A model generated the notes under the pieces. The model had not been told where the DNA came from and ran no database searches. It saw only the letters and a list, made by a program, of their open reading frames with translations. From positions 1 through 64,000 of the forward strand of contig JAHWKK010000009.1 of NCBI GenBank assembly GCA_019347945.1: a stretch of DNA of 64,000 bases, in the 5' to 3' direction. The position numbers were made by a program, and so were the translations under genes. The stretch's first letter is position 1, and every line of letters begins with the position of its first letter. Origin of the DNA: Acidobacteriota bacterium. Lineage in GTDB: Bacteria; Acidobacteriota; Thermoanaerobaculia; Gp7-AA8; JAHWKK01. Below are positions 1,985 through 42,960 of the stretch, piece by piece.

Positions 1985-1990
1985 ACTTCA

Positions 1991-3415: not shown

Positions 3416-3446
3416 AAAAGAGGCGGCCCGTATGACGGAACGCCTC
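3415..3446 (-). terminator. intrinsic terminator of the PFK/enoyl-CoA hydratase unit
   Basis: Reading on the minus strand, GAGGCG (3446-3441) pairs with CGCCTC (3425-3420). An inner CCGT/ACGG pair shortens the loop, and a run of five T follows (3419-3415). It lies just downstream of the enoyl-CoA hydratase stop and overlaps the stop codon of the convergent HolA-like gene. Confidence 0.7.
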
Positions 3447-3468
3447 CTGAAATGGCCCGGGACTGAGA

Positions 3469-5377: not shown

Positions 5378-5480
5378 GGCGCGATTCCTTGCAATTCAGC
5401 CGCCTCTGGCACCGTCGTTGCCAAGACACACCACGTTCGGCACGAATGCCGGACTCGTGACCAACGGAAGGAGACTCACC

Positions 5481-5732: not shown

Positions 5733-5762
5733 CGACCATCACTGATGCAGCTCGAAAGGAAG

Positions 5763-5790
5763 GAGCGAGGCATATCACCTCGCTCTTTTT
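5763..5790 (+). terminator. intrinsic terminator after the GlsB-like gene
   Basis: A perfect 8-bp stem GAGCGAGG/CCTCGCTC (5763-5770 with 5778-5785), a 7-base loop, then five T (5786-5790) and a further CTT. The loop contains the stop codon of the convergent methyltransferase gene. Confidence 0.88.
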
Positions 5791-7388: not shown

Positions 7389-7398
7389 GACCTTCTCC

Positions 7399-8249: not shown

Positions 8250-8855
8250 TCAAGCCCTCCCGGGCCGTCTCCACTTATCGTCGATTCCCTCGAGCAGGCT
8301 CGCCAGATCGTCTGCATGCTCCTCCTCGTTCGCCAGGATCTCGACGAGCATGTGCCTGGTCACGGGATCATCGTCGCCGATGTAACGGATCATCTCGGAG
8401 TAGGTCTCGATCGCGATCCGCTCGGCGACGAGGTCCTCCTTCATCATCTCCACCAGATCATCTCCGGCGTGATAGTCGGAATGCGACCGGCTCGCCAGGC
8501 CATCCGGATCGAAATTCGGCTTGCCTCCGAGCTGAACGATTCTCGAGGCGATCGAGTCCGCATGCATCTGCTCTTCATTCGCATGCTCGAGAAACTCCGC
8601 CGCGACGGATTCGGCATGAATCCCCTTGGCGAGGTAATAATGACGCTTGTAACGAAGAATGCACACGAGCTCGGTCGCCAGCGCTTCGTTCAGCAGTCGC
8701 AGCACCGTCTCTCGATCGGCCTTGTAGGCGTCCGTCACGGAACCCTGGCCGATGTGCTGTCGCGCCCTCTTCCGAATCGCCTCGATATCTGCGAGAAAGG
8801 GCTTTGAGCGCTTCGAGTCGCTCGACGGCGTCACCTTATCTTTCTTCTTCGCCAA
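8250..8855 (-). CDS. ferritin-like (bacterioferritin/Dps-type) di-iron protein
   Basis: A 201-residue four-helix ferritin-like protein with a Lys-rich N-terminus. Metal-ligand signatures are in place: a first-helix Glu in NEALATELVCILRYKRHY, EHANEEQMHAD on helix 2, EDLVAERIAIETY on helix 3 and ILANEEEHADDL on helix 4. This is the pattern of bacterioferritin/YciE-like proteins that oxidise and store iron. TTG 8855 is taken as start because a GGAGG lies 4 bases upstream; a GTG at 8894 would add 13 residues that span that ribosome site. It sits between the antiporter and the hypothetical gene in the same orientation. Confidence 0.85.
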   Translation of the reverse strand: MAKKKDKVTPSSDSKRSKPFLADIEAIRKRARQHIGQGSVTDAYKADRETVLRLLNEALATELVCILRYKRHYYLAKGIHAESVAAEFLEHANEEQMHADSIASRIVQLGGKPNFDPDGLASRSHSDYHAGDDLVEMMKEDLVAERIAIETYSEMIRYIGDDDPVTRHMLVEILANEEEHADDLASLLEGIDDKWRRPGRA

Positions 8856-8909
8856 CTGACCTCCAAAAAGTAATGTGGAAGCCCTTACCTGCACCAGCCA
8901 TGCCGTGGA

Positions 8910-10214
8910 TCACCGCGGGTAGTCCTGTGGGGCGTCAGAGGTAATGCGGCTCAGATTTCCGGTTGGCGGCCCACTGGGCGGTTGGGCTCTGAGCAACTTC
9001 CGAAGCATCGGTGGCACGATGAATGTCGTCACGATCACCATCATGGCAACCGAGCTGTACAGGCCGGCGTTGAGAATGCCGACCGTCAGGCCGATCTGCG
9101 CGAAGATCAGTCCGACTTCTCCTCGCGGTACCATCCCGACTCCGATCACCAGCTTACGCAGCCCCTTACCGACCGCAGCCCAGCCGGAAATGACCTTTCC
9201 GAGGATCGCGACGAGCGTGAGAACGACGCCCACGACGACGAACTGCCTCATCTCAGGATTGAAGGGATTCATCGTCCTCAGGTCGATCGCCGCACCGACC
9301 GACACGAAGAAGATCGGAATGAAAAACTGCGCGAGGTCGTGTACTTCCCTTTCGATCTGTGGCGCCCTGTCGGTTTTTGCCAGAACCAGCCCGGCTGCAA
9401 ATGCCCCGATGATCAGCGCCGAACCCGCCAGCTCGGCGAGGTAGGCAAGTGCGAACGCGAACATGATCGACGCGAAGAACAGAGCCTTTGCAACCCGAAG
9501 CCTTGCAATCAACCGAATCAGAAACGGCGCAAGGAAGTTACCCAGCACGATCGCGACGATGACGAATCCGAACGCGATCAGCGTGATCCTGGTGACCGCG
9601 ACTGGGCCGAGATCCTCGCCGCGAGCCAGTGCGCTGACCACAGTCAGGATGATCAGGCCGAGAATGTCGTCGATGACCGCCGCCCCGAGAATGACCTGGC
9701 TCTCCCGGGCATGGAGGTGCCCCAGATCGGACAGCACCCGGGCCGTGATCCCCACCGACGTCGCCGTCAGCGCAGCACCCATGAAAACTGCAACCAGCGT
9801 CGGGAGACCGAGCGCGTGAGCGGTAAAGTATCCGGCAGCGAAGGGCGCTGCGACCCCCACGAGCGCGACGAGCGCCGACGAAACCCCTACTTCCAGGAGC
9901 TTCCCGAGATCCGTCTCGAGGCCGATCATGAAAAGAAGAAGAATGACTCCGAGCTCTGAGAGGAGATGGATCGTATGATCGGCAGGGTTGACCAGCCCCA
10001 GGCCGGAAATACCCACTACCAGCCCGGCCACCAGCTCTCCCAGCACCGCAGGCTGGCCGATTCGCTCGGCCAGCTCACCAAAGAGTTTTGCCGACGCATA
10101 AATCGCAATCAGAACCAGGAGAAACTGGCCCACTCCCATCGTTCCATTGGTTGCTTCGCCCTCGGTCACGGCTGCAAGGCCCGGCACGAAAAGGAATGAC
10201 TCTGGCAGTGTCAT
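8910..10214 (-). CDS. Kef/CPA2-type cation:proton antiporter
   Basis: A 434-residue integral membrane protein with about 12 hydrophobic segments and the Na/H exchanger fold of the CPA2 family. Recognisable blocks are the LFGELAERIGQPAVLGEL start, the core VILGAAVIDDILGLIIL with the paired transport aspartates, and VGMVPRGEVGLIFA near the C-terminus. There is no TrkA-N/RCK domain, so it is the short, membrane-only form and more likely a Na or K/proton exchanger than a glutathione-gated Kef channel. It is divergent from the LytTR gene. Confidence 0.9.
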   Translation of the reverse strand: MTLPESFLFVPGLAAVTEGEATNGTMGVGQFLLVLIAIYASAKLFGELAERIGQPAVLGELVAGLVVGISGLGLVNPADHTIHLLSELGVILLLFMIGLETDLGKLLEVGVSSALVALVGVAAPFAAGYFTAHALGLPTLVAVFMGAALTATSVGITARVLSDLGHLHARESQVILGAAVIDDILGLIILTVVSALARGEDLGPVAVTRITLIAFGFVIVAIVLGNFLAPFLIRLIARLRVAKALFFASIMFAFALAYLAELAGSALIIGAFAAGLVLAKTDRAPQIEREVHDLAQFFIPIFFVSVGAAIDLRTMNPFNPEMRQFVVVGVVLTLVAILGKVISGWAAVGKGLRKLVIGVGMVPRGEVGLIFAQIGLTVGILNAGLYSSVAMMVIVTTFIVPPMLRKLLRAQPPSGPPTGNLSRITSDAPQDYPR

Positions 10215-16798: not shown

Positions 16799-18694
16799 TC
16801 AATCGAACACGCGGTCGTGCGATGAGCCGGGACGCATGTTCCTCTCCCACGAGTCCTTCCCCCAGTTGGTCTCCTCGAGCCATTCCTCGAGCCGGGCGGG
16901 AGGTAAGGGCGGAGTGAAGCAGTATCCCTGGGCGACGTCGACACCGATCTCGGCCACCCTGCGGCAGAGATTCGCGTCGGCGACTCCCTCGGCCACCACC
17001 TGCCGTCCGAGGCTGTGCGCCAGATCCACCATCGCCCTCACGATCGCGGCGTCGGCCTCGCTCGACGCCATCCCCATCACGAAGCTCTTGTCGATCTTGA
17101 TCTCGTCGACGGGAAGCTGTCTCAGATGAGTCAGCGACGAATACCCCGTCCCGAAATCATCGAGCGAAATCCGCAGTCCGAGCGAACGGAGCAGAGAGAG
17201 TATCGCCAGCGCCTGGGGAGGGTCTGCGAGAATGTTGCTCTCGGTAATCTCGAGCTTGAAGAGCTGGGGTTCCAGCCCGAGTCGCTGCAGCTTGTCGAAG
17301 ATCTTCTGCGGCAGAATGTGCTCGTGAAAACTGCGTCCTGAAACATTGACCGCGACCGAGAGCGGCTTGCCGAGCTTCTTCCACGTCGCGCATTGATCGA
17401 GCACGGAATCGATCGCCCACTCGGTGAGACTGCCGATCATTCCGGTTTTCTCGGCGAGGCGTATGAAGACGTCCGGCAGGATGTAGCCATCGCGTCGCCG
17501 CCAGCGCGCGAGCGCTTCGACGCCCACGACCACTCCGGTCCGGAGGTGGACCTTCGGCTGATAGAACATTTCGAGCGATCTGTTCCGAATCGCCTCCCGG
17601 AGCTCGACGGCGAGCGACATCGAGGCGGGATCTTCCTTCTCGAGGTCCGCGGTGAAGAGACTGAAGCCGATGCCTTCACGCTTCGCCTTGTACATCGCAG
17701 CATCAGCCCGCCTGAGAAGAGTCGAAGCATCGTCGCCGTGATCCGGATAGACGGCGATCCCGACGCTCGCTCCGACTTCGAAGCGGTACTCTTCGACCTC
17801 GAACGGATATTCGAGCGCGTTAGTCACCTTCCGCGCGATCCGGATGGCTTCGCCGGGATCCGACATCGTCGGCACAACGAGGGCGAACTCGTCTCCACCC
17901 ATGCGGGCGATCGTCTGGGTCTCATCGGCCTCGTCGCGAAGTCGCCGCGCGACCTCGTTCAGCAGCGCGTCTCCATAGTGATGCCCGAAGGTGTCATTGA
18001 CCTCCTTGAAACGGTCGAGGTCCATGATCAGGAGCCCGGTCTTCTCTCCGAGCTCTCGCGCCCTTTCGATCGCTCCGCCGAGCCGGTTGAACAGAAGAGC
18101 TCGATTCGGAAGACCCGTCAGGTCATCGTGCGTTGCCTGGTGCTCCAGCGTCTGAACCTGCGCCCTCTCCTCGGAAACATCCCGGAGATATGCGACCCAC
18201 AGGCGGACGGAACTTTCATCGTCGTCGTGGTGAATCGGAACGAGAAGGAGCCGCAGCAGATAGGAAGTTCCATTCGCCCTCACGGCCTCGGCTTCCGCCT
18301 CGAACGACCGGCGCTGACAGAGTGGATGCATCATCGCATCGATCAGCGCCTCGTCGCTCTGGCCCACTCCAAAAATGGTGAGCGGGCGACCCAAAGCGTC
18401 GTCCGAGGCCATCCCGGTGATTCGAGTGAATGCCTGATTCACATACTTCGCGCGCGGACTGCGCGCAAGGTCTGGTGGGGTGATGATCGCAATTCCATCC
18501 GCCGCGTGCTCGATCGCCATCTGCACCAGCGCATCGCGGCCGAGCTCGTCGGTCCGAAGCTGCGACAGCTCGATCGCCACGGTCTTTCCGGCGTCCCAAT
18601 GCGTCGGTTCAGAGACATTCAGGACTTCCCTGATCGATACCGGCAGCTCCGGCACGTCCGAGTTCCAATTGTGGGCTGTGTGCCTCTCACTCAT
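16799..18694 (-). CDS. PAS-GGDEF-EAL c-di-GMP turnover protein
   Basis: A 631-residue cytoplasmic protein with an N-terminal PAS domain (about 55-175), GGDEF (about 190-350) and EAL (about 370-620). The GGDEF motif is intact (RMGGDEFALV). The EAL domain keeps its catalytic set: EALARW, NVSGRSF, LEITESN, DDFGTGYSSL, KIDKSF and AEGV. It could therefore both make and break c-di-GMP, with the PAS domain sensing the signal. There is no membrane segment. The PilZ protein at the left end is a candidate receptor. It is monocistronic and convergent with pdxA. Confidence 0.93.
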   Translation of the reverse strand: MSERHTAHNWNSDVPELPVSIREVLNVSEPTHWDAGKTVAIELSQLRTDELGRDALVQMAIEHAADGIAIITPPDLARSPRAKYVNQAFTRITGMASDDALGRPLTIFGVGQSDEALIDAMMHPLCQRRSFEAEAEAVRANGTSYLLRLLLVPIHHDDDESSVRLWVAYLRDVSEERAQVQTLEHQATHDDLTGLPNRALLFNRLGGAIERARELGEKTGLLIMDLDRFKEVNDTFGHHYGDALLNEVARRLRDEADETQTIARMGGDEFALVVPTMSDPGEAIRIARKVTNALEYPFEVEEYRFEVGASVGIAVYPDHGDDASTLLRRADAAMYKAKREGIGFSLFTADLEKEDPASMSLAVELREAIRNRSLEMFYQPKVHLRTGVVVGVEALARWRRRDGYILPDVFIRLAEKTGMIGSLTEWAIDSVLDQCATWKKLGKPLSVAVNVSGRSFHEHILPQKIFDKLQRLGLEPQLFKLEITESNILADPPQALAILSLLRSLGLRISLDDFGTGYSSLTHLRQLPVDEIKIDKSFVMGMASSEADAAIVRAMVDLAHSLGRQVVAEGVADANLCRRVAEIGVDVAQGYCFTPPLPPARLEEWLEETNWGKDSWERNMRPGSSHDRVFD

Positions 18695-19804: not shown

Positions 19805-19974
19805 ATTGAAATCTCCTTGCCGCCGTCAGTGACGGCGATCTCTTCAAAAAAGTTTCGGGATTTCTGCCGGACGTCCACCGATCGAGTCAGATCCGGTGCG
19901 TGTAGCCGGGCGCCGGCAGGGTGTAGGGAATGTGCGCGAGCTGGCATCGCGAGTGGATCGCGGGGATTATATAC

Positions 19975-20078
19975 GATCAGGGATCAGGGATCAGGGATCA
20001 GGGATCAGGGATCAGGGATCGGGGATCAGGATCAGGGATCAGGGATCAGGGGTCAGGGGTCAGGGATCAGGGATCAGG
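19975..20078 (+). repeat. GATCAGG heptamer tandem array
   Basis: Fifteen head-to-tail units of the 7-base word GATCAGG, one of them 6 bases long and a few with single changes (GATCGGG, GGTCAGG). The array fills the space between the divergent ssb and dtd and ends 13 bases before the dtd start. A shorter copy in the opposite orientation follows dtd. Confidence 0.97.
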
Positions 20079-20091
20079 TAGCCGGAGTCGA

Positions 20092-20535
20092 ATGATCAGT
20101 GTGATTCAACGCGTTCGAAAAGCGTCGGTGTCGGTCGATGGCCATGTGGTCGGCAGCATCGACGGAGGAATGATGATTCTCGCAGCCGTCGAGAAGGGTG
20201 ACGACGAGAGCCTCATCGAGCGCTGTGCCCGCAAACTGGTGTCGTTGAGGATCTTCCCGGACGAGGAAGGGCGGATGAATCGCTCGATCGAGGAGAGCGG
20301 CGGATCGATCCTCGCGGTGTCGCAGTTCACCCTCGCGGGGTCGATTCGAAAGGGTCGGCGGCCGAGCTTCGAGAACGCCGAAGAGCCGGAGCGCGCCCGT
20401 ACTCTGTTCGATCTCTTCGTCCGAACGCTCCGAAGCGAAGGGATCCACGTCGAGACCGGCGAGTTCGGCGCTATGATGATCGTGAGCCTCGAAAATGACG
20501 GTCCGGTCACATTCGTCCTGCGGTTGCCGGAGTAG
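20092..20535 (+). CDS. dtd: D-aminoacyl-tRNA deacylase
   Basis: A 147-residue DTD enzyme that removes D-amino acids (and glycine wrongly attached to tRNA-Ala) from tRNA. The active-site signatures are SQFTLAGSIRKGRRPSF and the Gly-Pro motif in DGPVTFVL. The family start MISVIQRVRKASV fits ATG 20092, with GGAG 7 bases upstream; longer in-frame versions run through the tandem repeat and are not used. Complementary repeat arrays flank the gene on both sides, so its transcript could fold end to end. It is convergent with rseP. Confidence 0.95.
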   Translation: MISVIQRVRKASVSVDGHVVGSIDGGMMILAAVEKGDDESLIERCARKLVSLRIFPDEEGRMNRSIEESGGSILAVSQFTLAGSIRKGRRPSFENAEEPERARTLFDLFVRTLRSEGIHVETGEFGAMMIVSLENDGPVTFVLRLPE

Positions 20536-24979: not shown

Positions 24980-25055
24980 TGGCTGGGGCGGCAGGACTCG
25001 AACCTGCGATCTCCCGGTTAACAGCCGGGCGCGATACCAGCTACGCCACACCCCA
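24980..25055 (-). tRNA. tRNA-Asn (anticodon GTT)
   Basis: A full cloverleaf on the minus strand. The acceptor stem TGGGGTG pairs with CGCCCCA (one G-T), the anticodon stem CCCGG/CCGGG closes the loop CTGTTAA with anticodon GTT, and the T stem GCAGG/CCTGC encloses TTCGAGT. The discriminator base is G and the CCA end is encoded. The total is 76 bases with CCA. Confidence 0.95.
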
Positions 25056-32205: not shown

Positions 32206-33113
32206 CAGCTGAGATACTTCAGCAGGTCGCGAGCAAAGGCGGCGTTCTCCCCCTCCGGCTCGAGCTCGAGATACCTCGTGAGGTGCTTCCTCGCCTCGCT
32301 GTTCTTTCCCTGTCGCGCGTACAGACTCCCGAGCTCGTAATGGGCTTTGGCGAAGGTATCGTCCATTTCGACCGCGCGCTTCAAGAGCTTCTCAGCCTCG
32401 ACGTCGTTGTTGTCGTTGAGGAAAGGGACGGCCTGATTGAACAGCGCGGCGGGATTCGCGGGAGCCAGGCGCTTGTATTCGGCAGCCTTTTCGTTGTTCC
32501 CGAGTTTGGTATAGGCGTCGGCGAGAATGGAGTTCAGGACCTCATCGTCCTCGCCCAGTTCCCGAGCCTTCTCTCCGGCCTCAGCAGCCTTCGCCCAGTT
32601 GTCGGTCCGTGCATGTAGCCGCGCCAGAGCGCTCCACCCGGCGATCAGAGTCGGGTCGACTGTGACCGCCTCCTGAATCTTTGCGACCGCTTCCGCGTCC
32701 TTCCCCTCGTTGGCCAGCTGCACCCCTTCGTTGAAAATAGCAAAGGCCGGGTTCTCGACGGGGGCATCCCCCATCTGCGAGCCGACCTTGGCGAGCTTCA
32801 CTTCCTTTTCGTTCTTCTGTGGAAGGAGGTTCAGCTTCCAGACCGCCTGCAACGGCAGGTATCCATCTTTCGAAAATGTGAACTCGTAAGGAATGGTCCC
32901 GTCGACGAGAAACACGGTGAACTTCCCCTCCTCGTCGGTCTCGACCGTACGCTCGATGCTTCGCTTCTCGGTTGCAACGAGATGAACCGTGACGCCGGCC
33001 AGGGGATTACCGTCGGTGTCGGTCACGACGCCGGTCAATCTCGCCTCGCCGATTCCGAGCGCCATCGGAGCTGCAAGCGCGAACACCGTCAGAATCAGAA
33101 TGAGTTTCTTCAT
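32205..33113 (-). CDS. secreted TPR protein with carboxypeptidase-regulatory-like domain
   Basis: A 302-residue exported protein: signal peptide 1-20 (KKLILILTVFALAAPMALG), then a transthyretin-like carboxypeptidase-regulatory domain (about 22-105: LTGVVTDTDGNPLAGVTVHL), a linker, and tetratricopeptide repeats in the C-terminal 170 residues (AHYELGSLYARQGKNSEARKHL and others). ATG 33113 is chosen for the typical signal peptide and the GGAGGGAAAAGGA ribosome site; an upstream in-frame start would add residues lacking signal-peptide character. It is divergent from hemW and coupled to the small lipoprotein. Confidence 0.88.
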   Translation of the reverse strand: MKKLILILTVFALAAPMALGIGEARLTGVVTDTDGNPLAGVTVHLVATEKRSIERTVETDEEGKFTVFLVDGTIPYEFTFSKDGYLPLQAVWKLNLLPQKNEKEVKLAKVGSQMGDAPVENPAFAIFNEGVQLANEGKDAEAVAKIQEAVTVDPTLIAGWSALARLHARTDNWAKAAEAGEKARELGEDDEVLNSILADAYTKLGNNEKAAEYKRLAPANPAALFNQAVPFLNDNNDVEAEKLLKRAVEMDDTFAKAHYELGSLYARQGKNSEARKHLTRYLELEPEGENAAFARDLLKYLS

Positions 33114-33211
33114 TGTCCTTTTCCCTCCTCGGGAAGTTTCCATCTCTGAAAATGCGAACGTCAGAGGACGCATTCCTCCCGGCTCGCCCCGGCCGGTTCT
33201 ATGATGCCCCC

Positions 33212-34333
33212 GTGGGAACCTCGGCTGAACCTGGAACCGGCCTCTACGTTCATCTCCCCTTTTGTGCCCGCCGCTGCACCTACTGCGCCTTCGCGATATC
33301 TACAGACCCCGCTCTGGAGGACGCCTACACGCGAGCCCTGAACAACGAGATCGATCTGCGCAGCGGGGACTGGAGCCGCACGCTGCGAACTCTCTATCTC
33401 GGAGGCGGTACCCCGTCGCGATCGTCCCGCCGGAGTCTCGAGCTGATTTTCACCGCGATCCGTAACCAGTTCGACACCGGTTCGCTCCGCGAAGTCACGA
33501 TCGAAGCGAACCCGGAAGACATTTCCGAGGAAGCCCTCAGCCTTTGGACTTCGCTCGGAATCGACCGAGTCAGTCTCGGAGTGCAGTCGTTTCACGATCG
33601 GGAGCTCCAGCCGATCGGCCGGCTGCACGGTCGAGCAGGCGCGCTGAACGCTGTTCGGATCATCTCATCGGCTGACGTTCGGCTCAGCATCGACCTCATC
33701 GCCGGCCTTCCAGACCAGACACCCGATTCGTTCTCGGAAAGCATCGATCTCCTCCTCCAGGCCGAGCCGGATCACGCTTCGATCTACATGCTGGACCTCG
33801 AGCCGGGTTCCCCGCTCGAGACGATGGTGTCGAGTCGACGAATCGACATTCCCCCCGATTCCGAAGTCGCCGACTGCTATCGTCTTGCCGTTTCCCGGCT
33901 CGATGAGGCCGGCCTTCGTCAGTACGAGATCAGCAACTTCGCCAGCGAGGGAAACAGGGCCGTTCACAACACGTCGTACTGGGAAGGTTTCCCTTACCTC
34001 GGCGTCGGTCTTTCGGCCCATTCCTTCGATGGTCGTGCCCGCTATGCGAATTCCAGAAACATGCGAAGATACATCGAGCTCGCTTCGGCCTCCGGATCGG
34101 CGGTCGAGTTCCGGGAAGAGATCGATGAGACCGCGCGGCGAAGAGAGCGACTGCTCCTCTCGCTTCGACGCATCGAGGGGCTCGACGACGAGGAGTTCGA
34201 AGCATTGACGGGTGAAAAGGGGAGCGAATGGCTGGATCGCGGACGGGAAAATGGCTGGGTTCGAATCGATCGCATCGCATTGACCGTGGAGGGTTTCCTT
34301 CTGAGCAACGAGCTCATTGGAGAGCTCTTTTAG
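33212..34333 (+). CDS. hemW: HemW-like radical SAM protein
   Basis: About 373 residues. The radical SAM cluster motif appears as HLPFCARRCTYCAF, followed by the GGGTPS SAM motif, EANPEDIS and SLGVQSFHDRELQPIGRLH. The length and the lack of the HemN N-terminal extension fit HemW, a heme-binding chaperone often misnamed coproporphyrinogen oxidase. GTG 33212 is taken as start because the family begins just ahead of LYVHLPFC; ATG 33152 would add 20 residues. The last 106 bases overlap the next gene. Confidence 0.88.
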   Translation: MGTSAEPGTGLYVHLPFCARRCTYCAFAISTDPALEDAYTRALNNEIDLRSGDWSRTLRTLYLGGGTPSRSSRRSLELIFTAIRNQFDTGSLREVTIEANPEDISEEALSLWTSLGIDRVSLGVQSFHDRELQPIGRLHGRAGALNAVRIISSADVRLSIDLIAGLPDQTPDSFSESIDLLLQAEPDHASIYMLDLEPGSPLETMVSSRRIDIPPDSEVADCYRLAVSRLDEAGLRQYEISNFASEGNRAVHNTSYWEGFPYLGVGLSAHSFDGRARYANSRNMRRYIELASASGSAVEFREEIDETARRRERLLLSLRRIEGLDDEEFEALTGEKGSEWLDRGRENGWVRIDRIALTVEGFLLSNELIGELF

Positions 34334-35058
34334 CGATCCTCCTCCTGGCAGCGGGTGCGGCACCGTCGACGCTCGCCCAGGATTTCGCGTTCGATCCCTC
34401 GATCACGCAGGAGCAATTCGAGGAGTTCAGCCTCGCTCTCGGTCAGGCAATCTACCCGTCTCCGGTAGCACCCGCGGATGGGGCCGGTCTTCTGGCGCTC
34501 GATATCGGCGTCGCCGTTTCCGCCCTCGAGATCGACGAGTCCGCACCGTACTGGCAGTTGTCGATCAGCGAAGACATCCTTCAGGACGGCTATCTCTTCG
34601 TCCCGCGCCTGGTCGTGTCGAAATCCTTCGGAAGGTTCAACATCAGCGGCAGTTACATGACGATTCCGGAAACCGAGATCGACGTGATCGGAGCGACACT
34701 CGATCTCACCCTGAGCAGGGATGGCCTCGTACGGCCGGCCGTCGGAATTCGGGGAGCATGGTCCGAGCTCCGGGGTGTGGACGATCTCGAGATGACCGTC
34801 ATGGGACTCGAGGCCATCATCAGCAAAAAAGTGGGGCCCTTGACCCCTTATGGAGCCTGGGGCCGGGAGATGATCGAGTCGAGCGGCCGGATTCTCCTTC
34901 CGATTCCCGAAGACGAGTTGATTCTCGAAGCCGAATTGGAGGGCAACCGTCTGACCGTCGGGGCAAGGTTCAGCTTTTTTCTGTTCGAGATCGCAGCGGA
35001 GGCCGTTCGCCATGACAACGACACCACCTACGGGGCACGGGCGAGTCTGAGCCTCTGA
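34228..35058 (+). CDS. putative outer-membrane beta-barrel protein
   Basis: A 276-residue protein with an N-terminal extension, a hydrophobic signal-like segment (LLAILLLAAGAAPSTLAQ at about 34-51) and a body of amphipathic strands with alternating polar and hydrophobic residues (LFVPRLVVSKSF, FNISGSYMTI, RLTVGARFSFFLFEIAAEAV) ending in SLSL. This looks like a small 8-10 strand barrel. No ATG, GTG or TTG is available close to the signal segment; ATG 34228 has GGGGAG just upstream, so the gene starts deep inside hemW. It is probably coexpressed with the halogenase-like gene. Confidence 0.65.
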   Translation: MAGSRTGKWLGSNRSHRIDRGGFPSEQRAHWRALLAILLLAAGAAPSTLAQDFAFDPSITQEQFEEFSLALGQAIYPSPVAPADGAGLLALDIGVAVSALEIDESAPYWQLSISEDILQDGYLFVPRLVVSKSFGRFNISGSYMTIPETEIDVIGATLDLTLSRDGLVRPAVGIRGAWSELRGVDDLEMTVMGLEAIISKKVGPLTPYGAWGREMIESSGRILLPIPEDELILEAELEGNRLTVGARFSFFLFEIAAEAVRHDNDTTYGARASLSL

Positions 35059-35098
35059 TTCAGCAATGAACCCGCCGACGGCGGCGTTGGAGAGCGAT

Positions 35099-36691
35099 AT
35101 GGGTGAAACGATCAAGATGTCGAGTGAACGATCCGACGCCGATGTCGTCATACTCGGGGGTGCGTTCAGCGGTTCCGCAACCGCGACGCTGCTGCTCCGG
35201 GAACGTCCGGGCCTCCGCGTCGTCATCGTCGAGAAGACCGAGGCCTTCGACGCAAAGGTAGGCGAAGCGACCACCGAAATGTCAGCGATGTTCCTCACCC
35301 GGCGCCTCGCCTTGTGGGAGCATCTGGAGCGCGAGCACCTTCCGAAGGAAGGGCTGCGTTACTGGTTCGGCAACGGACGCGTCACCGGTCATTCGAGCTC
35401 GAGCGAGACAGGCGGAGTCGTGAGGAGCACCGTGCCCTCCTTCCAGCTTCGCCGTGACGTGCTCGATGAGCACGTAGCGACTCTCGCCATGAAGGAAGGG
35501 GCGGAGATCCTTCGTCCGGCGCGCGCGACCGAGGTCCGCATCGGCGATTTCGAGCATGAGGTCGACGTTCTCATCGGGCGCGAAACTTCCACGATTCGAA
35601 CACGCTGGGTCATTGACGCGACGGGCCGGTCATCGCATCTGGGACGCGCGCTCAGGCTGATCGAGCCGAACGAGCGGCACCCCATCTCCGCGGTCTGGGG
35701 TCGCTGGAAGGAAGTTCGTCACATCGACGACATCGCCGCGCGCAATGGAAAGCTCGGTGAGGGAAATGTGGGATCACGGAGACTCTCGACGAATCATTAC
35801 CCCGGATACGGATTCTGGATCTGGGTTATCCCGCTCGGAAACGGCGAAACATCCGTCGGCATCGTGTGGGACCAGAGAAAGTACGATTTCCGATCCCGTG
35901 GAGCCAACACCGAGGCCGCCTACCGGGCCGCTCTCGCCGAGCACCCTCCGCTTCGCGAGCTGCTCGACGGAGCGGAGCTCCGGACCGATGATCTCCGATC
36001 GCTGCAGAATCTGGCCTACCGGACGAATCAGTACATGGGGGCGGGCTGGGCACTCGTGGGCGATGCGGCCATCTTCCTCGATCCCTACTATTCTCCCGGC
36101 CTGGATCACGCGTCGTTTTCCGTGGAAGCCACAGTGGCGATCGTTCTGGAGGATCTGGCCGGCTCGGATGTTTCCAAAAATATCGCGGAGCACAATGAGG
36201 TTTTTCTTCGCTCTCACGATCGCTTCTTCGAGGCAGTCTACCTCGAAAAATACGCCTACATGGGAGAGCACGACCTCCTGTCGGCCGCCATGCTCCTCGA
36301 TACGGCGCAGTACTACATCTTCGTCGTCATTCCGGCCTATCGATTCCACAGGCGTTTTCACTGGATGCCCGTCCTCGGGCCGAGGCCGGCCTTCATCAGC
36401 TATCACATGATGAGGGTCTACAACCGTCGGTTCGCGAGGCTCGCTGACCTACGGCGCGCAGCCGGAGAAGCCGGAGCTCGCAACGACGGCCGGCGGATCA
36501 GTGCGTACTTCAACCTTCATTTTGCCCCGCTGCGCATGGCTTTTCGAGGAGTCGGGATCTGGATGCGCGCCGAGCTCGATGGCGTCCGGCTTCGATTGAA
36601 GATGCTTTTCCGCTCGTCTGAAACGAAGACGGCGCGGGAGGACGCGCCGGAGCCCGCCGCGATGAAGGGCGGCTCGGCCGCACGCCGCTGA
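35099..36691 (+). CDS. flavin-dependent halogenase-like FAD oxidoreductase
   Basis: A 530-residue FAD protein. The N-terminal nucleotide loop reads ILGGAFSGSA, followed by GEATTE. A Lys in PKEGLRYWF (about 83) sits where halogenases carry the catalytic Lys. The halogenase hallmark WxWxIP appears as WIWVIP at about 239-244, and the FAD-binding GDAAIFLDPYYSPGLDHAS block follows. This is the set seen in the tryptophan/phenol halogenase superfamily, which also has members of other function. ATG 35099 is chosen because GGAG lies 7 bases upstream; ATG 35066 lacks a site. No polyketide or peptide synthetase gene is near. Confidence 0.72.
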   Translation: MGETIKMSSERSDADVVILGGAFSGSATATLLLRERPGLRVVIVEKTEAFDAKVGEATTEMSAMFLTRRLALWEHLEREHLPKEGLRYWFGNGRVTGHSSSSETGGVVRSTVPSFQLRRDVLDEHVATLAMKEGAEILRPARATEVRIGDFEHEVDVLIGRETSTIRTRWVIDATGRSSHLGRALRLIEPNERHPISAVWGRWKEVRHIDDIAARNGKLGEGNVGSRRLSTNHYPGYGFWIWVIPLGNGETSVGIVWDQRKYDFRSRGANTEAAYRAALAEHPPLRELLDGAELRTDDLRSLQNLAYRTNQYMGAGWALVGDAAIFLDPYYSPGLDHASFSVEATVAIVLEDLAGSDVSKNIAEHNEVFLRSHDRFFEAVYLEKYAYMGEHDLLSAAMLLDTAQYYIFVVIPAYRFHRRFHWMPVLGPRPAFISYHMMRVYNRRFARLADLRRAAGEAGARNDGRRISAYFNLHFAPLRMAFRGVGIWMRAELDGVRLRLKMLFRSSETKTAREDAPEPAAMKGGSAARR

Positions 36692-36715
36692 TCCCGTCCG
36701 ATTTGTTCGAGGCGG

Positions 36716-38146
36716 CTAGTCTCCGTCTCCGCGGGAAACTCCGCGCCGTCGTCCTTCCGGCTGCTTCGGCGCGGTCTTGCCTTCCGGAACGAGCGTTGCG
36801 GTCCAGCTCTCGGCGGTACCGCATGCGTTGCTGACGAGAACCCAGAACTGGCTGACCCGCTGAATCGGGGGAGTCACGTATGTCGGTCCGGTCGCATCCA
36901 GAATCGGAAATTTCGTCGAACCGGCTGGTCCCCAGTACCACTGGTATCGATACGGCTCGCTTCCGCCCGTGACTTGTACGCTGAGCGTCACGACTTCGCC
37001 GTCGGCGACGTTCATGCTCTTCGGCTGATGATCTGCCAGGCTCAGAATCAGTGGAGGATCACACACGATCTCGACCGTCATGAGACCAAACGTCTCGAGC
37101 TCGAGAAAGTCGCCGTTCTCGATCGACCCCCTCTCTCCGAACCCACGAACCTGGACCGTGTAGGGTCTTGGAAACGAATTCGGATCGGGTGTGACGGTCA
37201 AAGTCGTCGTCAGTACGGATTCATCCTCGTTGCCGACCACGGACGAATCACCGAGTACCGCCGTCCATCCCTCCGGAAGGTCGAAGGGCTCGAGATTGAG
37301 CACGAAGTCTTCCGGAACACCGAAGATCTCGAGATCGAAATGGGCCGACTCGGCAGCCGTGACCTGCCGCAGTGCCGGAGTCGGAACGATCTGAGCCGCC
37401 CCTCCGGTAATGCCACCCGCAGCCAGAATGACCGCGGAATCGAGCACCGTATCGGAGGTATCCGCGATCGCCAGCTTCACGTGATGAACCACCCCCGGAG
37501 TGATTGCGGTCGTTGCCAGAAGCTGCCTCGTGAATCCGTCGAACTGCGTGTTCGCGTTCCCTGAACCGACCGGGTTGTCGACGTAGAACTCGGAGTTGCT
37601 CTCGTGATTGATCGAGTTGATCGAAACCGTTTTCCCGGGGTCTCCCAGCACGAAGGCGATGTTCTGGCCATCGACGAAGAATCCAAAGACATCGTTGAAC
37701 GAGCTCCCGACGAACTCCTTGTATTCTTCGGAGGCAAAGACGTAGAGGATTGCCAGCTCGGGCGTCGATGTAACGACGTCGAACTCGAGGATCGCCGCGT
37801 CCCGTGTGGTCAGTGGACTCACCAGTCCGTCGAGATCCGGATCGCCTGCAGTCGAATGCGAAGTCGTCTTTCCCTCGTCGTCGTTCGGGCCGGCGATGTC
37901 GGAGATGTTCCCGGTACTGAGGATGACGCCGCTTTCCAGTCCGAGATTCGCGCTGGTGCCTCCACTGAAGGTTCCCGCCGCTACGTCGGCACCGGTGAAC
38001 GTCACGTTGGTGATCGTGGCGCCGGATCCGGCGAGTAGTGCCCCGAGGGCCTGCGGGGTCGTTCCGCTCAGATCCGTAGTGATGATCTGGCCTGCCGCCG
38101 GCACGGCCAGCAGGAGCACTGCAATCAGCTTCGCTGTTCTCTTCAT
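36716..38146 (-). CDS. secreted choice-of-anchor L protein with Ig-like domain
   Basis: A 476-residue exported protein: signal peptide (LIAVLLLAVPAAG), then a choice-of-anchor L domain (about 20-230) with the typical ASEEYKEFVGSSFNDVFGFFVDG and SNSEFYVDN segments. A strand-rich region and a C-terminal immunoglobulin-like domain follow (YRYQWYWGPAGST...SNACGTAES). The C-terminal basic tail (GRRRGVSRGDGD) carries no clear sorting signal. ATG 38146 follows GGAGG. It is probably cell-surface or released; its partner is unknown. It is convergent with the halogenase-like gene. Confidence 0.85.
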   Translation of the reverse strand: MKRTAKLIAVLLLAVPAAGQIITTDLSGTTPQALGALLAGSGATITNVTFTGADVAAGTFSGGTSANLGLESGVILSTGNISDIAGPNDDEGKTTSHSTAGDPDLDGLVSPLTTRDAAILEFDVVTSTPELAILYVFASEEYKEFVGSSFNDVFGFFVDGQNIAFVLGDPGKTVSINSINHESNSEFYVDNPVGSGNANTQFDGFTRQLLATTAITPGVVHHVKLAIADTSDTVLDSAVILAAGGITGGAAQIVPTPALRQVTAAESAHFDLEIFGVPEDFVLNLEPFDLPEGWTAVLGDSSVVGNEDESVLTTTLTVTPDPNSFPRPYTVQVRGFGERGSIENGDFLELETFGLMTVEIVCDPPLILSLADHQPKSMNVADGEVVTLSVQVTGGSEPYRYQWYWGPAGSTKFPILDATGPTYVTPPIQRVSQFWVLVSNACGTAESWTATLVPEGKTAPKQPEGRRRGVSRGDGD

Positions 38147-38277: not shown

Positions 38278-39900
38278 TCAGCGCGTCTTGAGGAGCAAAA
38301 TGGTCTGATCGTCCTTCTGGGGTGCCCCTCCGACGAAGCCGTCGATCGCGTCGATGATCGCCTTGCGAAGCGCGACGAGCCCGAGACTGTGGTTGTCCCG
38401 AACCAGCGCGACGAGCCGGTCGTGGCCGTACTCCTCGTCCCGGCTGTTCTCGGCCTCGGTCAGGCCGTCGCTGTAGAGAACCAGCAGCGAGCCAGGTAGA
38501 AAATCTTCTTCCTGTGTCTCGTAGATCGAGCCCGGCATGATGCCGATCGGCATTCCGTTGGAAGCGAGAAAACTGATGTCGCCACCTCGAACCAGAAAGC
38601 CGGGATTGTGGCCCGCATTGACGTAGCGGACGCGCGCGGCATCGCGATCGACCGTCGCCAGAAGGAGAGTGATGAACTTGTTCTGGGACGACCACTTGTG
38701 AATGTGACGGTTGAGCTCGGTCGCGATCTCGCCAAGGTCCCGTTCCTCACCGAAAAGAACGTGAAGTCCCGCGTGAAATGCGCTGACCAGAATCGCCGCG
38801 GGCGTCGACTTGCCCGAGACGTCGGCGACACAAAGGCTGAGTGATCCGTCGCCGACCAGAACGGTGTGATAGTCGCCTCCGAGCTGCCGCGCGGAGCGCA
38901 TCCACACCTCGGTTTCGAATCCCGTGTCGGGGTCGACCCGGACATTCGGGAGAATGTCCTGCTGGATCGTGGCGGCGAGTTGCAGCTCTCTTTCCATCGC
39001 CTGCTTCTCGAGCGCCTGACGGTGAAGACGCGCGTTTTCGAGGGCGATCGCGGCCTGGGAGGCAAAAAGGGAGAGGGTCCTGATGTCCCCCTTCTCGAAC
39101 TCCCCGACGCCTCCTCGAACCTCCCGGTCGGCGGCCGCAAGAACACCGATCGTTCCTCGTTCGCTTCGAATGGGAACCATGACCGCGCTTTGGCATTCGG
39201 GAAACACTCTCACTGCAACGCTGCAGTCGCTCAAATTTTCGTTTTCGTCGACGAGCGCTGCCATCGATTCTTCGCCGAGGAGGTCTTCGAGGTCCTCGCG
39301 CGATACTTCACCGAATGAGCGATGAAGCTCGAATGAACGGGCGCGCCGCAGAAACAAAGCAGCGCGTCGAGCATTGAGTAGCGTCACGGTTCGCATCAGG
39401 ATTTCCTCACTGAGCTCATCGAGGTTCAGCGTGGATGCGATCGACAGTCCGATCTCGTGAAGCGATTCGAGCTCGAGCAGCTGCATTTTCGACTGGAAAT
39501 CGCCCTCTCGCATCTGGGACGCCATCCGCTTGTTCGCGATCATGACTGCGATCGGCGCAGCGATAGCATGCAGTGTGGCTCCGAAGCCTGCATCAACAGA
39601 CCGGGCAGCAATCGCTCCGAATACCGATCCTTCGCGAGCGATCTGAGCGACCCCGGCATCGAGGGTTTCGGCTTCCGCCATCTGTTCGGGAGGATTCCAT
39701 TCGGGGGATGCCGCGACGAGCACCGGTGCGGAGTCGACCGAGCCGAGCCAGACGGCCGCATCCGATGCGCCGAGCAGACGAGTCAGCAGATCGACGATGG
39801 CTTCCCCGAGGGCGCGACGGCTGGTCTCGTCATCGAGGGTGATCCGATCCAGCTGATTGAGGTGGCCGACGAGCTCGACAGCAGCGCTGGAAAAGCTCAT
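38278..39900 (-). CDS. GAF-PP2C (RsbU-like) serine phosphatase
   Basis: About 540 residues: a GAF domain (about 140-320) behind a short coiled coil, then a SpoIIE/PP2C phosphatase domain with ADVSGKSTPAAILVSAFHA and LVLYSDGLTEAEN (metal-binding Asp residues). Such enzymes dephosphorylate a STAS anti-sigma antagonist on sensing a signal. The directly upstream genes encode exactly that STAS protein and its kinase. ATG 39900 is used; GTG 39933 would overlap the STAS gene. It is the last gene of a minus-strand operon behind a sigma-54 promoter. Confidence 0.9.
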   Translation of the reverse strand: MSFSSAAVELVGHLNQLDRITLDDETSRRALGEAIVDLLTRLLGASDAAVWLGSVDSAPVLVAASPEWNPPEQMAEAETLDAGVAQIAREGSVFGAIAARSVDAGFGATLHAIAAPIAVMIANKRMASQMREGDFQSKMQLLELESLHEIGLSIASTLNLDELSEEILMRTVTLLNARRAALFLRRARSFELHRSFGEVSREDLEDLLGEESMAALVDENENLSDCSVAVRVFPECQSAVMVPIRSERGTIGVLAAADREVRGGVGEFEKGDIRTLSLFASQAAIALENARLHRQALEKQAMERELQLAATIQQDILPNVRVDPDTGFETEVWMRSARQLGGDYHTVLVGDGSLSLCVADVSGKSTPAAILVSAFHAGLHVLFGEERDLGEIATELNRHIHKWSSQNKFITLLLATVDRDAARVRYVNAGHNPGFLVRGGDISFLASNGMPIGIMPGSIYETQEEDFLPGSLLVLYSDGLTEAENSRDEEYGHDRLVALVRDNHSLGLVALRKAIIDAIDGFVGGAPQKDDQTILLLKTR

Positions 39901-39913
39901 CCGAAAGGAGCTC

Positions 39914-40264
39914 TCAGATCGACAGCTCTCCACGCGCCGAGTCCTCGTCTTCGAAGATCGATGCGTATTGAGCCAGACCCATGATCTGAAACGTTTTGTG
40001 GATGACGGGTGTCAGCGAACAGAACGCCACTCTGCCATCTTTCTCGAGCATTTTTTCCACAATTTCGATCAGAATGCTGATTCCGATCGAGTTCACGATC
40101 CGAGTCTGCCGCAGGTCGAGCAGCAGCGTCCGGACACCGTCGTCCATCAGCTGGTATGCACATCTGGCGATCTCCTCGCCACCGACGTTGTTGATGTAGC
40201 CCTGCGTGTGGAGAACCGCCCCGGCCCCGGAGCGATCGACCAATACCTTGCACGCCTCACTCAT
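39914..40264 (-). CDS. STAS domain anti-sigma factor antagonist
   Basis: A 116-residue STAS protein. The conserved segment LLLDLRQTRIVNSIGISIL carries the Ser (within NSIGI) that is phosphorylated by RsbW/SpoIIAB-type kinases. The unphosphorylated form binds the kinase and frees its partner, usually a sigma factor. It starts at ATG 40264, overlapping the kinase stop by 4 bases; a longer in-frame version inside the kinase is rejected. The GAF-PP2C gene follows after 13 bases. Confidence 0.93.
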   Translation of the reverse strand: MSEACKVLVDRSGAGAVLHTQGYINNVGGEEIARCAYQLMDDGVRTLLLDLRQTRIVNSIGISILIEIVEKMLEKDGRVAFCSLTPVIHKTFQIMGLAQYASIFEDEDSARGELSI

Positions 40265-40698
40265 CGTCCTGCCTCCGTGCTCGTCTTCACCATGTGTACC
40301 GTCGTTCCATCGGAGCCCGAAAGGATTTCGATCTCGTCCATGTGCGCTTCCATGATCTGGAGACCCCACCCCCTCTTCCGGGGACCTGCGGGAAGTTTCG
40401 CCCTCCGAGCCCGAACCTCGTCAGGATTGAAACCCTTTCCATGATCAGTAATCCAGATGTCCAGTCGAACGTCCGTGGCAGTCGACGAGCCATTGAATCT
40501 TAAATAGATGCGCCCATCCTCGCAACAGGAGTGTTCCCGAACGTTGATGCAGGCCTCGATCAGAGCGTGGGCAATCTCGTCCACTTCTTCTTCGCTCATC
40601 CCGAGCTCACGAGCCAACTCCATCGCGGCGTCAGCCGCGGTCAGCTCGAAGTCGGGAACCAGCGGAAGCGCCAGCTCCATCTCACGTTCACTCACCAT
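40261..40698 (-). CDS. RsbW/SpoIIAB-like anti-sigma kinase (HATPase)
   Basis: A 145-residue GHKL ATPase of the anti-sigma kinase type: N-box EACINVREHS, G1 box DHGKGF and G2 box GWGLQIMEAH, with no transmitter or sensor part. It would phosphorylate the adjacent STAS protein and, when that is modified, hold another partner. No sigma factor gene lies in this block, so the partner may be a sigma factor elsewhere or something else. ATG 40698 fits the family start. It overlaps the STAS gene by 4 bases. Confidence 0.9.
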   Translation of the reverse strand: MVSEREMELALPLVPDFELTAADAAMELARELGMSEEEVDEIAHALIEACINVREHSCCEDGRIYLRFNGSSTATDVRLDIWITDHGKGFNPDEVRARRAKLPAGPRKRGWGLQIMEAHMDEIEILSGSDGTTVHMVKTSTEAGR

Positions 40699-40727
40699 GG
40701 TCGTATTCGGTGCCCTGCACCGGCAAT

Positions 40728-40895
40728 TCAGAACATCAGCAGGAGCGTGACCGCCCCCTCGAGCCACGCAGGCACGGCATCATGCCACTGCATCACGCCC
40801 AGAAACAACACGTTCGCCGACAGCAGACCCGCCAGTCCCCATCGGTCGCTCACTGCATCCTGAACCCTTTCCAACGACCTGACCATTGCGCTCAT
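40728..40895 (-). CDS. 55-residue putative membrane microprotein
   Basis: A short gene with an exceptionally good ribosome site (GGAGGAGG, 6 bases before ATG 40895). The product has a charged N-terminal 20 residues, then two hydrophobic stretches (LAGLLSANVLFLGVM and PAWLEGAVTLLLMF) separated by QWHD. It could be a one- or two-pass membrane peptide. It is the first gene behind a sigma-54-type promoter and lies 29 bases before the RsbW-like kinase, so it belongs to the partner-switching operon. No family is recognised. Confidence 0.7.
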   Translation of the reverse strand: MSAMVRSLERVQDAVSDRWGLAGLLSANVLFLGVMQWHDAVPAWLEGAVTLLLMF

Positions 40896-40927
40896 CTGGA
40901 TCCTCCTCCGTTCGAGGCCAGTCCAGG

Positions 40928-40943
40928 AGCAACGGCACTGCCA
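40928..40943 (-). promoter_or_regulatory. sigma-54 (-24/-12) promoter
   Basis: On the minus strand the sequence is TGGCAGTGCCGTTGCT: the -24 GG and the -12 GC are separated by exactly 10 bases, and six flanking positions match the consensus TGGCAC-N5-TTGCW. Transcription would start about 12 bases downstream, near 40917, giving a short leader ahead of the GGAGGAGG of the 55-residue gene. Confidence 0.75.
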
Positions 40944-41019
40944 CGCATCCGCATGGCAACTCAGAGAGCTCAAACATCTGAATCTACAGGATTTAGTTAG
41001 TAACGACCCAAAATCAGCG

Positions 41020-41055
41020 CCGTGTCAAAAATCCCCATTGTTGGCATCGACACGG
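41020..41055. promoter_or_regulatory. possible activator binding site (inverted repeat)
   Basis: CCGTGTC (41020-41026) and GACACGG (41049-41055) form a 7-bp inverted repeat with a 22-base spacer, about 80-110 bases upstream of the sigma-54 promoter, the usual distance of an enhancer for an NtrC-type activator. Two CAATGAG copies lie just beyond it. This is inference from position and symmetry only. Confidence 0.35.
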
Positions 41056-41128
41056 GGCAATGAGCGGCCAAGTGCCCTGTAAACAATGAGTTAGCGCCGC
41101 TTGGTCCGAAATGGCCCAATGTGGGGTT

Positions 41129-42619
41129 TCAAGCCCCACTAATCTTCCGGTAAACCGTCTTTCGATCCACCCCGAGCTGTCGCGCCGCTTCGGAAACGTT
41201 TCCATTGACTCGATCGAGCACTCTCTTCACGTAGCGTCGTTCCATCTCCTCGAGAGGAAGGATCTCGGCTCCCGCCTCGAGACCGCTCGGCGAGGGATCG
41301 GGCGCCCCCCCGTCGCTGGCGAAGGGGAGATCGTTCTCGTCGATCAGAGGATCGAGCGTCAGAGCGAGAGCGCCTTCGATGAGATTCTCGAGCTCCCTGA
41401 CGTTGCCCCTGAAATCGTGATGCATCAGCTTCTGCAGCGCTTCCTGAGAGATTCGGACCCCGTGCAGGCCTTCTCTTTCGCCATACTTGTCGAGAAAGTA
41501 TCGGACCAGCGCCGGAATGTCCTCCCGGCGATCCCGCAGAGGTGGAAGCTCGATCTCCACGACTCGGAGACGGTAATACAGATCCTGACGGAACTGCCCG
41601 CTCTCGACGAGCTCCTCGAGGTTCCGATGAGTCGCCGCGAGAATCCGGACATCGACCTCCACGCGGCGGCGCGCGCCGAGCTTCTCGATCTCCCGTTCCT
41701 GGAGCACCCTCAGAAGCTTCGCCTGGAGAGTCAAAGGGATGTCGCCAATCTCGTCGAGAAAGACCGTCCCTCCTGATGCGACCTCGAACCGCCCAGGGCG
41801 ACCCTCGACTCCGGTCGCCACCCCCTTTTCAATTCCGAACAACTCCGCCTCGAGGAGTGACTCCGGGAGAGCGGCGCAGTTGATCGCCATAAAAGGCCGG
41901 TGACTGCGAGGCGAGTTGACGTGAATGAGCCGCGCGACCATCTCCTTGCCCGTTCCGGACTCGCCCCTGATCAGGACGCTGACCGGGCTCTCGGCAACGC
42001 GCGCGATCAGGTCGATCACACGCTGCATCGACGGAGAGTCCCCGATCATCAGCCGGTCGCGGTACTCCCGCTGCATCCGGCGCTTCAGCGCTCGGTTCTC
42101 ATCCTCGAGTGACTCCCGGACCATCTCGAGCTTGTGAAAGTTACGTGAGTTGTCGAGCGCCGCGGCACCGATCGCGGCGACGGACTCGATGAATCGTCTG
42201 TCGTCATCGTTGAATCCTCCCGCTTCGCTCCCTCGCCTCTCCTTCCCCAGCAGGCCGATCGCACCCAGAATCATCTCTCCCGAGACCAGCGGAGCGACCA
42301 GAAGTCCACCCTCGATCTCGAACGGGTGAACCGGCGAGCTCACGCTCTCCTTGAGGACCATCGATCTCCGAACGGGCTCGAGCTCCATCCAATCGCTCTC
42401 GGGAATCCGAACGCCAGACCCCTTCGCATACTGCAGCCGCATCTGCTCGTCGATCGAAAAGACGAATCCAGCCATCGCATCGAGCGTCGACATCGCGCGC
42501 AGCATCAACTCCTCGAGCAGCTCCTCCTCCGGCTGAAGCGTGTTGAGCGCCCGGCCGATGTCGTGCAGCGCCTCGAGCTGCAGAAGTTTCTGACGCGTTT
42601 CGAAACGGGTTTCGCTCAT
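41129..42619 (-). CDS. GAF-AAA+-Fis sigma-54-dependent activator
   Basis: A 496-residue enhancer-binding protein: GAF domain (about 10-165), coiled linker, AAA+ core (about 190-420) and a C-terminal Fis-type helix-turn-helix (RVNGNVSEAARQLGVDRKTVYRKI). Walker A is GESGTGKE, Walker B is GGTVFLDEIGDI, and the R-finger region is intact. The sigma-54 contact loop reads GVATGV instead of GAFTGA, a variant occurring in part of the family. There is no receiver domain, so the GAF senses the signal directly. It starts at ATG 42619 with GAGGGG upstream and overlaps the preceding gene by 4 bases. The next gene downstream has a sigma-54 promoter. Confidence 0.93.
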   Translation of the reverse strand: MSETRFETRQKLLQLEALHDIGRALNTLQPEEELLEELMLRAMSTLDAMAGFVFSIDEQMRLQYAKGSGVRIPESDWMELEPVRRSMVLKESVSSPVHPFEIEGGLLVAPLVSGEMILGAIGLLGKERRGSEAGGFNDDDRRFIESVAAIGAAALDNSRNFHKLEMVRESLEDENRALKRRMQREYRDRLMIGDSPSMQRVIDLIARVAESPVSVLIRGESGTGKEMVARLIHVNSPRSHRPFMAINCAALPESLLEAELFGIEKGVATGVEGRPGRFEVASGGTVFLDEIGDIPLTLQAKLLRVLQEREIEKLGARRRVEVDVRILAATHRNLEELVESGQFRQDLYYRLRVVEIELPPLRDRREDIPALVRYFLDKYGEREGLHGVRISQEALQKLMHHDFRGNVRELENLIEGALALTLDPLIDENDLPFASDGGAPDPSPSGLEAGAEILPLEEMERRYVKRVLDRVNGNVSEAARQLGVDRKTVYRKISGA

Positions 42620-42960
42620 TCGCCCCTCGCTCGACACACACCGAGCAGGTAATCACAGTTCCACAGCCGGTAAAACGGAGGCGACACCGAAAACAGCTCG
42701 ATCCACACCTTTTGTGCTTCCTCCCACCGCTGCAACTTCATCAGGCTCCGCCCCTTGAAGTACATCGCTTTCGGCCTGAGGGGGCCGCTGTTCCCCGCCG
42801 TAATCACCTCGTCGAGGACGCCGATCGCCGCCTCCGGCTCCCCCTCTGAATAAAGACACACCCCCTTCGCGTACCCCTCCTTCTCGTTACATGGAGTCGC
42901 CGAGGCATAAAGGGGCACCATGAGGAAAATGGTGAGGAGAGTCGCCACATTTCGCATCAC
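42616..42960 (-). CDS. small secreted TPR-like protein
   Basis: A 114-residue protein with an N-terminal signal sequence (NVATLLTIFLMVPLYASA) and a tetratricopeptide-like pair of helices (AIGVLDEVI, AMYFKGRSLMKLQRWEEAQKVW). Four Cys residues in the mature part, two near each end, could form disulfides. It is translationally coupled (ATGA) to the sigma-54 activator. It might be a periplasmic accessory to that regulator; this is inference from position. Confidence 0.75.
   Translation of the reverse strand: MMRNVATLLTIFLMVPLYASATPCNEKEGYAKGVCLYSEGEPEAAIGVLDEVITAGNSGPLRPKAMYFKGRSLMKLQRWEEAQKVWIELFSVSPPFYRLWNCDYLLGVCRARGE

Follow-up and report, generated by a model that had tools for sequence, protein, structure and literature searches.

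What might a halogenase-like flavoenzyme act on when no assembly line is encoded nearby? The question is raised by the first 64,000 nucleotides of contig JAHWKK010000009.1 (C9 hereafter) of an Acidobacteriota bacterium (GenBank assembly GCA_019347945.1), a stretch called here the window, which carries at 35066-36691 on the plus strand an open reading frame (ORF) for a halogenase-type flavin adenine dinucleotide (FAD) enzyme. The original prediction, made from the letters of the window, had proposed a free-standing substrate and an outer-membrane-like partner. The reading favored here, to which we give a rough probability of 0.5, is that the enzyme performs halogenase-type tailoring in an aryl-polyene-like type II fatty acid synthase/polyketide synthase (FAS/PKS) pathway, halogenating the aromatic part of an envelope-bound lipid. 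What carries this reading is a set of observations: the motifs of the enzyme, a conserved lysine, its clade, its predicted fold and its linkage in relatives.

An intact FAD enzyme with a halogenase fold

The ORF, which was followed through the ORF list, Pfam, phmmer, a structural model and an alignment, encodes 541 residues from its first ATG, and an alternative ATG at residue 12 (35099, plus strand), placed behind a GGAGAG sequence, was judged by eye to be the likelier start. The 541-residue product passes the Pfam model Trp_halogenase (PF04820) with 54.2 bits against a cut-off of 21, and it also passes FAD_binding_3. In phmmer its nearest relative of solved structure is CmlS (3i3l, E 2.7e-21), the other best ones being PltA, 8zop and 3nix. 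The ORF is thus an intact FAD enzyme with the halogenase fold and a little-studied relative of known halogenase-type flavin enzymes; searches of the open-licence literature found no description of its subfamily.

To place the motifs, 135 sequences were aligned: 89 members of the enzyme's family, 34 proteins of a second flavoprotein type that is labeled FAD2 here, 9 reference halogenases and 3 reductase-type sequences. The dinucleotide-binding motif of the enzyme is GGAFSG (residues 31-36; 35156-35173, plus strand), of the form GxAxxG with Ala in place of the Gly at the third position of GxGxxG, where the family has Ala in 57, Gly in 30 and Ser in 2 of its 89 members. The WxWxIP motif that the original prediction had reported is present as WIWVIP (residues 251-256; 35816-35833, plus strand), and in the family both W and the I are invariant (89/89) and the P is kept in 87/89. 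The second halogenase motif, Fx.Px.Sx.G, reads FLDPYYSPG (residues 337-345; 36074-36100, plus strand), and its F is found in 86/89 members and its P, S and G in 87/89, with 2 gaps.

A lysine in the halogenase position had also been announced, with no indication of which one, and it is present. In the alignment it is Lys94 (codon at 35345-35347, plus strand; context PKEGLRYW) that occupies the catalytic-Lys position of halogenases, since its column holds Lys in 88/89 family members (1 gap), 34/34 FAD2 proteins and 9/9 reference halogenases. The family profile alone puts Lys94 one residue off this column; the register given here is preferred because the larger alignment agrees with it and because residue 95 is variable and Lys94 constant. 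The other candidate, Lys64 in KVGEAT (35255-35272, plus strand), was rejected as the catalytic residue: it is Lys in 89/89 family members and in 0/43 of the FAD2 and reference sequences, and is therefore a family signature. The reductase-type sequences, in a region where their alignment is gappy, carry Lys (2/3) or Arg (1/3) in the Lys94 column, so that this column alone does not set reductases apart, whereas W, I, F and S in the two motifs do. In PltM, Lys87 is essential at the corresponding step, and the K87A variant is inactive (PMC6424973).

Phylogeny and predicted structure point in the same direction. In a FastTree phylogeny of 133 sequences and 370 columns, with supports given as FastTree values, the family forms a single clade (0.991) beside a clade (0.998) of 7 reference halogenases and all FAD2 proteins, and it does so again (0.993) when RadH and the C-1027 plasmid halogenase bring the references to 9. 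The enzyme's family thus sits outside the reference halogenases as their sister clade, a relation that depends on the outgroup; no reference enzyme falls inside the family clade in this tree, which was built without PltM, CtcP, MalA, tryptophan halogenases and QhpG. The reductase-type sequences branch outside both the family and the halogenase clades. The AlphaFold2 model, computed from 33 input sequences, has a predicted local distance difference test (pLDDT) score of 90.8. Used as a Foldseek query, it retrieves PltM first; 3nix and halogenases fill ranks 1-45, and rank 46 is the reductase 3oz2. The Z-scores of VIA-align put Bmp2 at 36.0 (385 residues, 3.0 Å), PltM at 34.8 (438 residues, 2.9 Å), CtcP at 34.0, PqsL at 29.3 and 3oz2 at 27.7, and the alignments with PltM and CtcP extend over the C-terminal helices to model residue 498. 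In this model, the predicted fold matches halogenases best.

Motifs, Lys94, tree and predicted fold together bear out the halogenase-like nature of the enzyme; it neither groups with reductases in the tree nor loses the lysine in the alignment, the two outcomes that the original prediction had named as refuting. Fold, WxWxIP, Fx.Px.Sx.G and the catalytic-Lys column are common to the enzyme and the FAD halogenases PltM, CmlS, PltA, CndH, Bmp2, FasV and CtcP. It differs from such enzymes in forming a clade apart from the 9 references of the tree, which do not include PltM and CtcP, in its KVGE with Lys64 and in the frequency of Ala in the dinucleotide motif of its family.

A dissociated KS/CLF cluster in relatives and in the window genome

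Of 18 relatives in the same order, 12 have a strong match to the enzyme, at 58-66% identity. In 9 of these 12 the gene lies near or next to an AMP-ligase gene that belongs to a cluster of ketosynthase (KS), chain-length factor (CLF), acyl carrier protein (ACP), dehydratase and glycosyltransferase genes, a dissociated (type II) arrangement; 7 of the 9 have the KS on the same contig, and in the other 2 the contig ends inside the AMP-ligase. Gene calls in these loci come from simple G+C scoring and may be in error where ORFs overlap. In a representative locus (L043), Pfam annotation gives the order glycosyltransferase of the GT2 type, CLF, KS, small hot-dog-like dehydratase, ACP, FAD2, AMP-ligase and enzyme; the dehydratase (123 residues) has no Pfam match, and its counterpart in the window genome matches NCBIfam FabZ models below their cut-off. 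The cluster KS has Cys in 22/22 aligned members and the CLF has Gln in 13/14, and this KS is present in the window genome and in 18/18 relatives of the order, and not in one further genome (G019).

The cluster resembles those that make aryl polyenes. In particular, the halogenase genes of the clusters for xanthomonadin and for arcuflavin (arcA) stand in a neighborhood like that of the enzyme, with KS, CLF-like protein, ACP, AMP-ligase, glycosyltransferase, acyltransferase and deacetylase. Xanthomonadin clusters of Xanthomonas include a gene for a halogenase, and a recurrent set joins halogenase, KS and CLF-like protein with a gene like that of dolichyl-phosphate-mannose synthase (PMC3691225). 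The arcuflavin loci, two physically unlinked arc loci, encode an AMP-ligase, ACP, KS, dehydratases, a glycosyltransferase, acyltransferases, a polysaccharide deacetylase, LolA, an exporter, an outer-membrane protein and a halogenase (PMC3949708). The aryl-polyene head group of xanthomonadin is known to be halogenated (PMC8253772).

The window genome holds the same genes away from the enzyme. The claim that no assembly line is near it stands as far as C9 itself goes, since no ketosynthase domain was found on this contig (matches lie on C6, C10, C13, C21, C30, C31, C35 and C47) and no nonribosomal peptide synthetase condensation domain in the whole genome; it does not hold beyond that, as an assembly system exists on C47 and adjoins the enzyme in relatives. 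Contig C47 (8,933 bases; locus L068) carries the KS, CLF, ACP, dehydratase, AMP-ligase and glycosyltransferase genes, together with a second halogenase-like enzyme of the FAD2 type, so that KS, CLF, ACP, dehydratase and AMP-ligase of an aryl-polyene-type pathway are all present in the genome. The step from a missing synthetase to a free-standing substrate consequently fails, and the accompanying guess of a lipid, aromatic or envelope compound fits an aryl-polyene-like lipid. Behind the AMP-ligase on C47 lies a gene for a pyridoxal-phosphate-dependent decarboxylase (6717-8165, plus strand), with no homologue labeled in the loci of the relatives. The enzyme gene is 35 kb from the start of C9, and it must therefore be at least that far from the C47 cluster, unless the contig is misassembled. 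C47 begins with a short tandem repeat (1-100) and ends with an ORF that by eye resembles a REP-associated transposase (8554-8933); these ends may explain the break in the assembly. An acyltransferase and polysaccharide deacetylase pair on C21 shares 39% and 43% identity with the pair that stands beside the enzyme in a verrucomicrobial locus (L142). MMPL proteins are encoded elsewhere in the window genome, and neither a LolA nor a ketoreductase linked to the pathway was found in it.

Beyond the order, one genome scan returned at least 594 pattern matches, among which at least 575 relatives were confirmed. The best 80 of the latter were taken as a wider sample and compared with 16 control loci of the order that hold the HemW-barrel gene pair described below; AMP-ligase, CLF, GT2, FAD2 and strong KS genes were counted within the fetched stretches, with thresholds set after the control had been seen, and the wider loci and the order relatives come partly from the same genomes, so that their counts are not independent. 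At least one cluster gene was present in 38/80 wider loci and at least two in 23/80, against 0/16 in the control; among the 51 loci of at least 15 kb the figures were 27 and 19. KS alone was rejected as a cluster marker, since a KS scoring 321-401 bits also turns up in 7/16 control loci, where it is probably housekeeping FabF, and for the same reason a KS/CLF count of 32/80 is inflated. Two Verrucomicrobiota loci (L142 and L146) lack a KS and carry a lipid-A-type acyltransferase and a polysaccharide deacetylase behind the enzyme. A gammaproteobacterial locus (L162) surrounds a distant relative with ACP, KS, acyltransferase, LolA, ketoreductase and an MMPL-like protein just below the Pfam cut-off, its KS (368 bits) being in the range of housekeeping KS. 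Other family members adjoin a type I PKS in Janthinobacterium and hpaB in Gloeothece. Among the matches listed, the family occurs in records titled Acidobacteriota, Planctomycetota, Verrucomicrobiota, Myxococcota, Proteobacteria, Bacteroidota and Streptomyces.

Single loci of the family show features of their own. Streptomyces calidiresistens (L156) has three members in tandem (starting at 9887, 11727 and 13073, plus strand). In L054 an FG-GAP/UnbV_ASPIC protein (1745-4003, plus strand) is encoded directly upstream of the enzyme, and one family-level group carries its homologues at six loci; in L057 an NMT1-type binding protein and the permease of an ATP-binding cassette (ABC) importer lie upstream (4321-6088, plus strand).

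Neighbors of the enzyme gene in the window

Directly upstream of the enzyme, an ORF of 276 residues (34228-35058, plus strand) encodes a predicted secreted, barrel-like protein, whose stop codon lies 8 bases ahead of the enzyme's first ATG. The beta-barrel neighbor of the original prediction is there as an ORF with a signal-peptide-like start and a strand-like alternating sequence, suggestive of a beta-barrel; no Pfam model backs it, as the product passes no Pfam cut-off and its best match is DUF6588, with 17.0 bits against a cut-off of 27. Homologues of this ORF were found in 16/18 order relatives, at 36-44% identity. Preceding it is a radical S-adenosylmethionine (radical-SAM) gene (33113-34333, plus strand), whose Pfam match is Radical_SAM and which we take to be HemW-like. 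This gene adjoins the barrel gene in 14/14 loci and then in 16/16 larger ones, in none of which a halogenase stands beside the pair. The barrel protein therefore belongs with the radical-SAM gene, its role as an outer-membrane-like partner of the halogenase is rejected, and in the window the halogenase is a third gene added behind the HemW-barrel pair. A scan of 32900-37000 was uninformative: no site resembled a promoter, and 2 minus-strand sites resembled terminators where 3.0 were expected.

Elsewhere in the window, a run at 38278-42637 on the minus strand looks by eye like a partner-switching module, its apparent products being a phosphatase with a GAF-like region, an anti-sigma antagonist, an anti-sigma kinase and an NtrC-type activator. 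An ORF at 19930-20535 (plus strand) consists mostly of a short GSGIRDQ-like repeat and is probably a tandem repeat and not a gene. Two tRNA-Asn genes, both with anticodon gtt, lie 8 kb apart on opposite strands (17207-17288, plus; 24980-25055, minus).

Candidate reaction and substrate

By analogy with known halogenases, hypohalous acid would form from O2, halide and FADH2 bound in the enzyme and would travel along a tunnel lined by FLDPYYSPG to Lys94, where an electron-rich (phenolic) part of the substrate would be halogenated. The neighborhood in relatives suggests that this substrate would be either the aryl starter or the completed aryl polyene. In the window genome the pathway would be scattered, with the enzyme on C9, the KS, CLF, ACP, dehydratase, AMP-ligase and glycosyltransferase genes and the second halogenase-like enzyme on C47, and the acyltransferase and deacetylase on C21, and these parts may act together.

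Several observations weigh against this reading. The enzyme is unlinked from the cluster in the window genome and in three relatives (G003, G014 and G017), 6/18 order relatives carry the cluster without a strong match to the enzyme, 42/80 wider loci have none of the counted cluster genes, and the C47 cluster showed no ketoreductase. Among the records seen, no member of the family clade has a tested reaction. Moreover, the flavoprotein of proteobacterial aryl-polyene-type plasmid loci is FAD2 by hidden Markov model (HMM) score in 5/5 cases, whereas the window enzyme is of the other type; ArcA and the Xanthomonas protein were outside this comparison, the aryl-polyene label is backed by annotation for L177 and L178 and by HMM matches for L174-L176, and L174 has a flavoprotein only. 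On this evidence the enzyme works in the setting of aryl-polyene halogenases but belongs to another branch.

The fold and the motif are not proof of halogenation either, because QhpG, which modifies a protein-bound Trp, is a hydroxylase with a halogenase-like fold and WxW residues, as in CmlS (PMC7876137). A flavin monooxygenase on this fold, one that hydroxylates or otherwise oxidizes an aryl or polyene part in the same pathway in the way QhpG treats its own substrate, is a rather unlikely but serious alternative, with which the weak, sub-cut-off matches to the NCBIfam models QhpG, LodB and GoxB and the position of the family clade outside the reference halogenases would agree. Lys94 and both halogenase motifs are nevertheless kept in nearly all 89 members, and the best structural matches are halogenases, with monooxygenases such as PqsL scoring lower. 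QhpG, LodB and GoxB serve in quinone-cofactor maturation, and such maturation genes were not seen beside the enzyme in the loci read.

The enzyme might instead halogenate an unrelated free-standing small molecule, the KS/CLF link of its relatives having no part in its function here. This would accord with the four genomes in which it is unlinked, with the relatives that adjoin a type I PKS, hpaB or the FG-GAP/UnbV protein, and with the fact that PltM, its closest structural match over the full length, uses free phenolics as substrates (PMC6424973). It is unlikely in view of the AMP-ligase neighborhood that recurs in 9/12 order relatives and of the cluster that the window genome has kept. The least probable reading makes the enzyme a geranylgeranyl-reductase type reductase, acting to saturate the double bonds of polyenes or isoprenoids. 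Its match to NCBIfam TIGR02032 scores 86.8 bits where the cut-off is 158.8. The reductase-type sequences, in which the first W and I of WxWxIP as well as the F and S of Fx.Px.Sx.G are missing, lie outside in the tree, and the reductase 3oz2 has a lower fold score; motifs and tree reject a placement among reductases.

Returning to halogenation within the aryl-polyene-like pathway, a further-reaching proposal can be made tentatively, at clearly less than even odds: an uncharacterized halogenase clade may add a second halogenation to aryl-polyene-like envelope lipids, giving doubly tailored organohalogen pigments of uncultured soil bacteria through a pathway with two halogenases and with genes that can lie dispersed along the chromosome. 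If the enzyme does halogenate, a large branch, with at least 575 relatives and a predicted kind of substrate, would open beside the known flavin halogenases, and halogenated aryl-polyene-like lipids would be suggested in uncultured Acidobacteriota, Planctomycetota and Verrucomicrobiota. More generally, a halogenase-like gene that appears to be an orphan can belong to a dissociated pathway encoded elsewhere in the genome.

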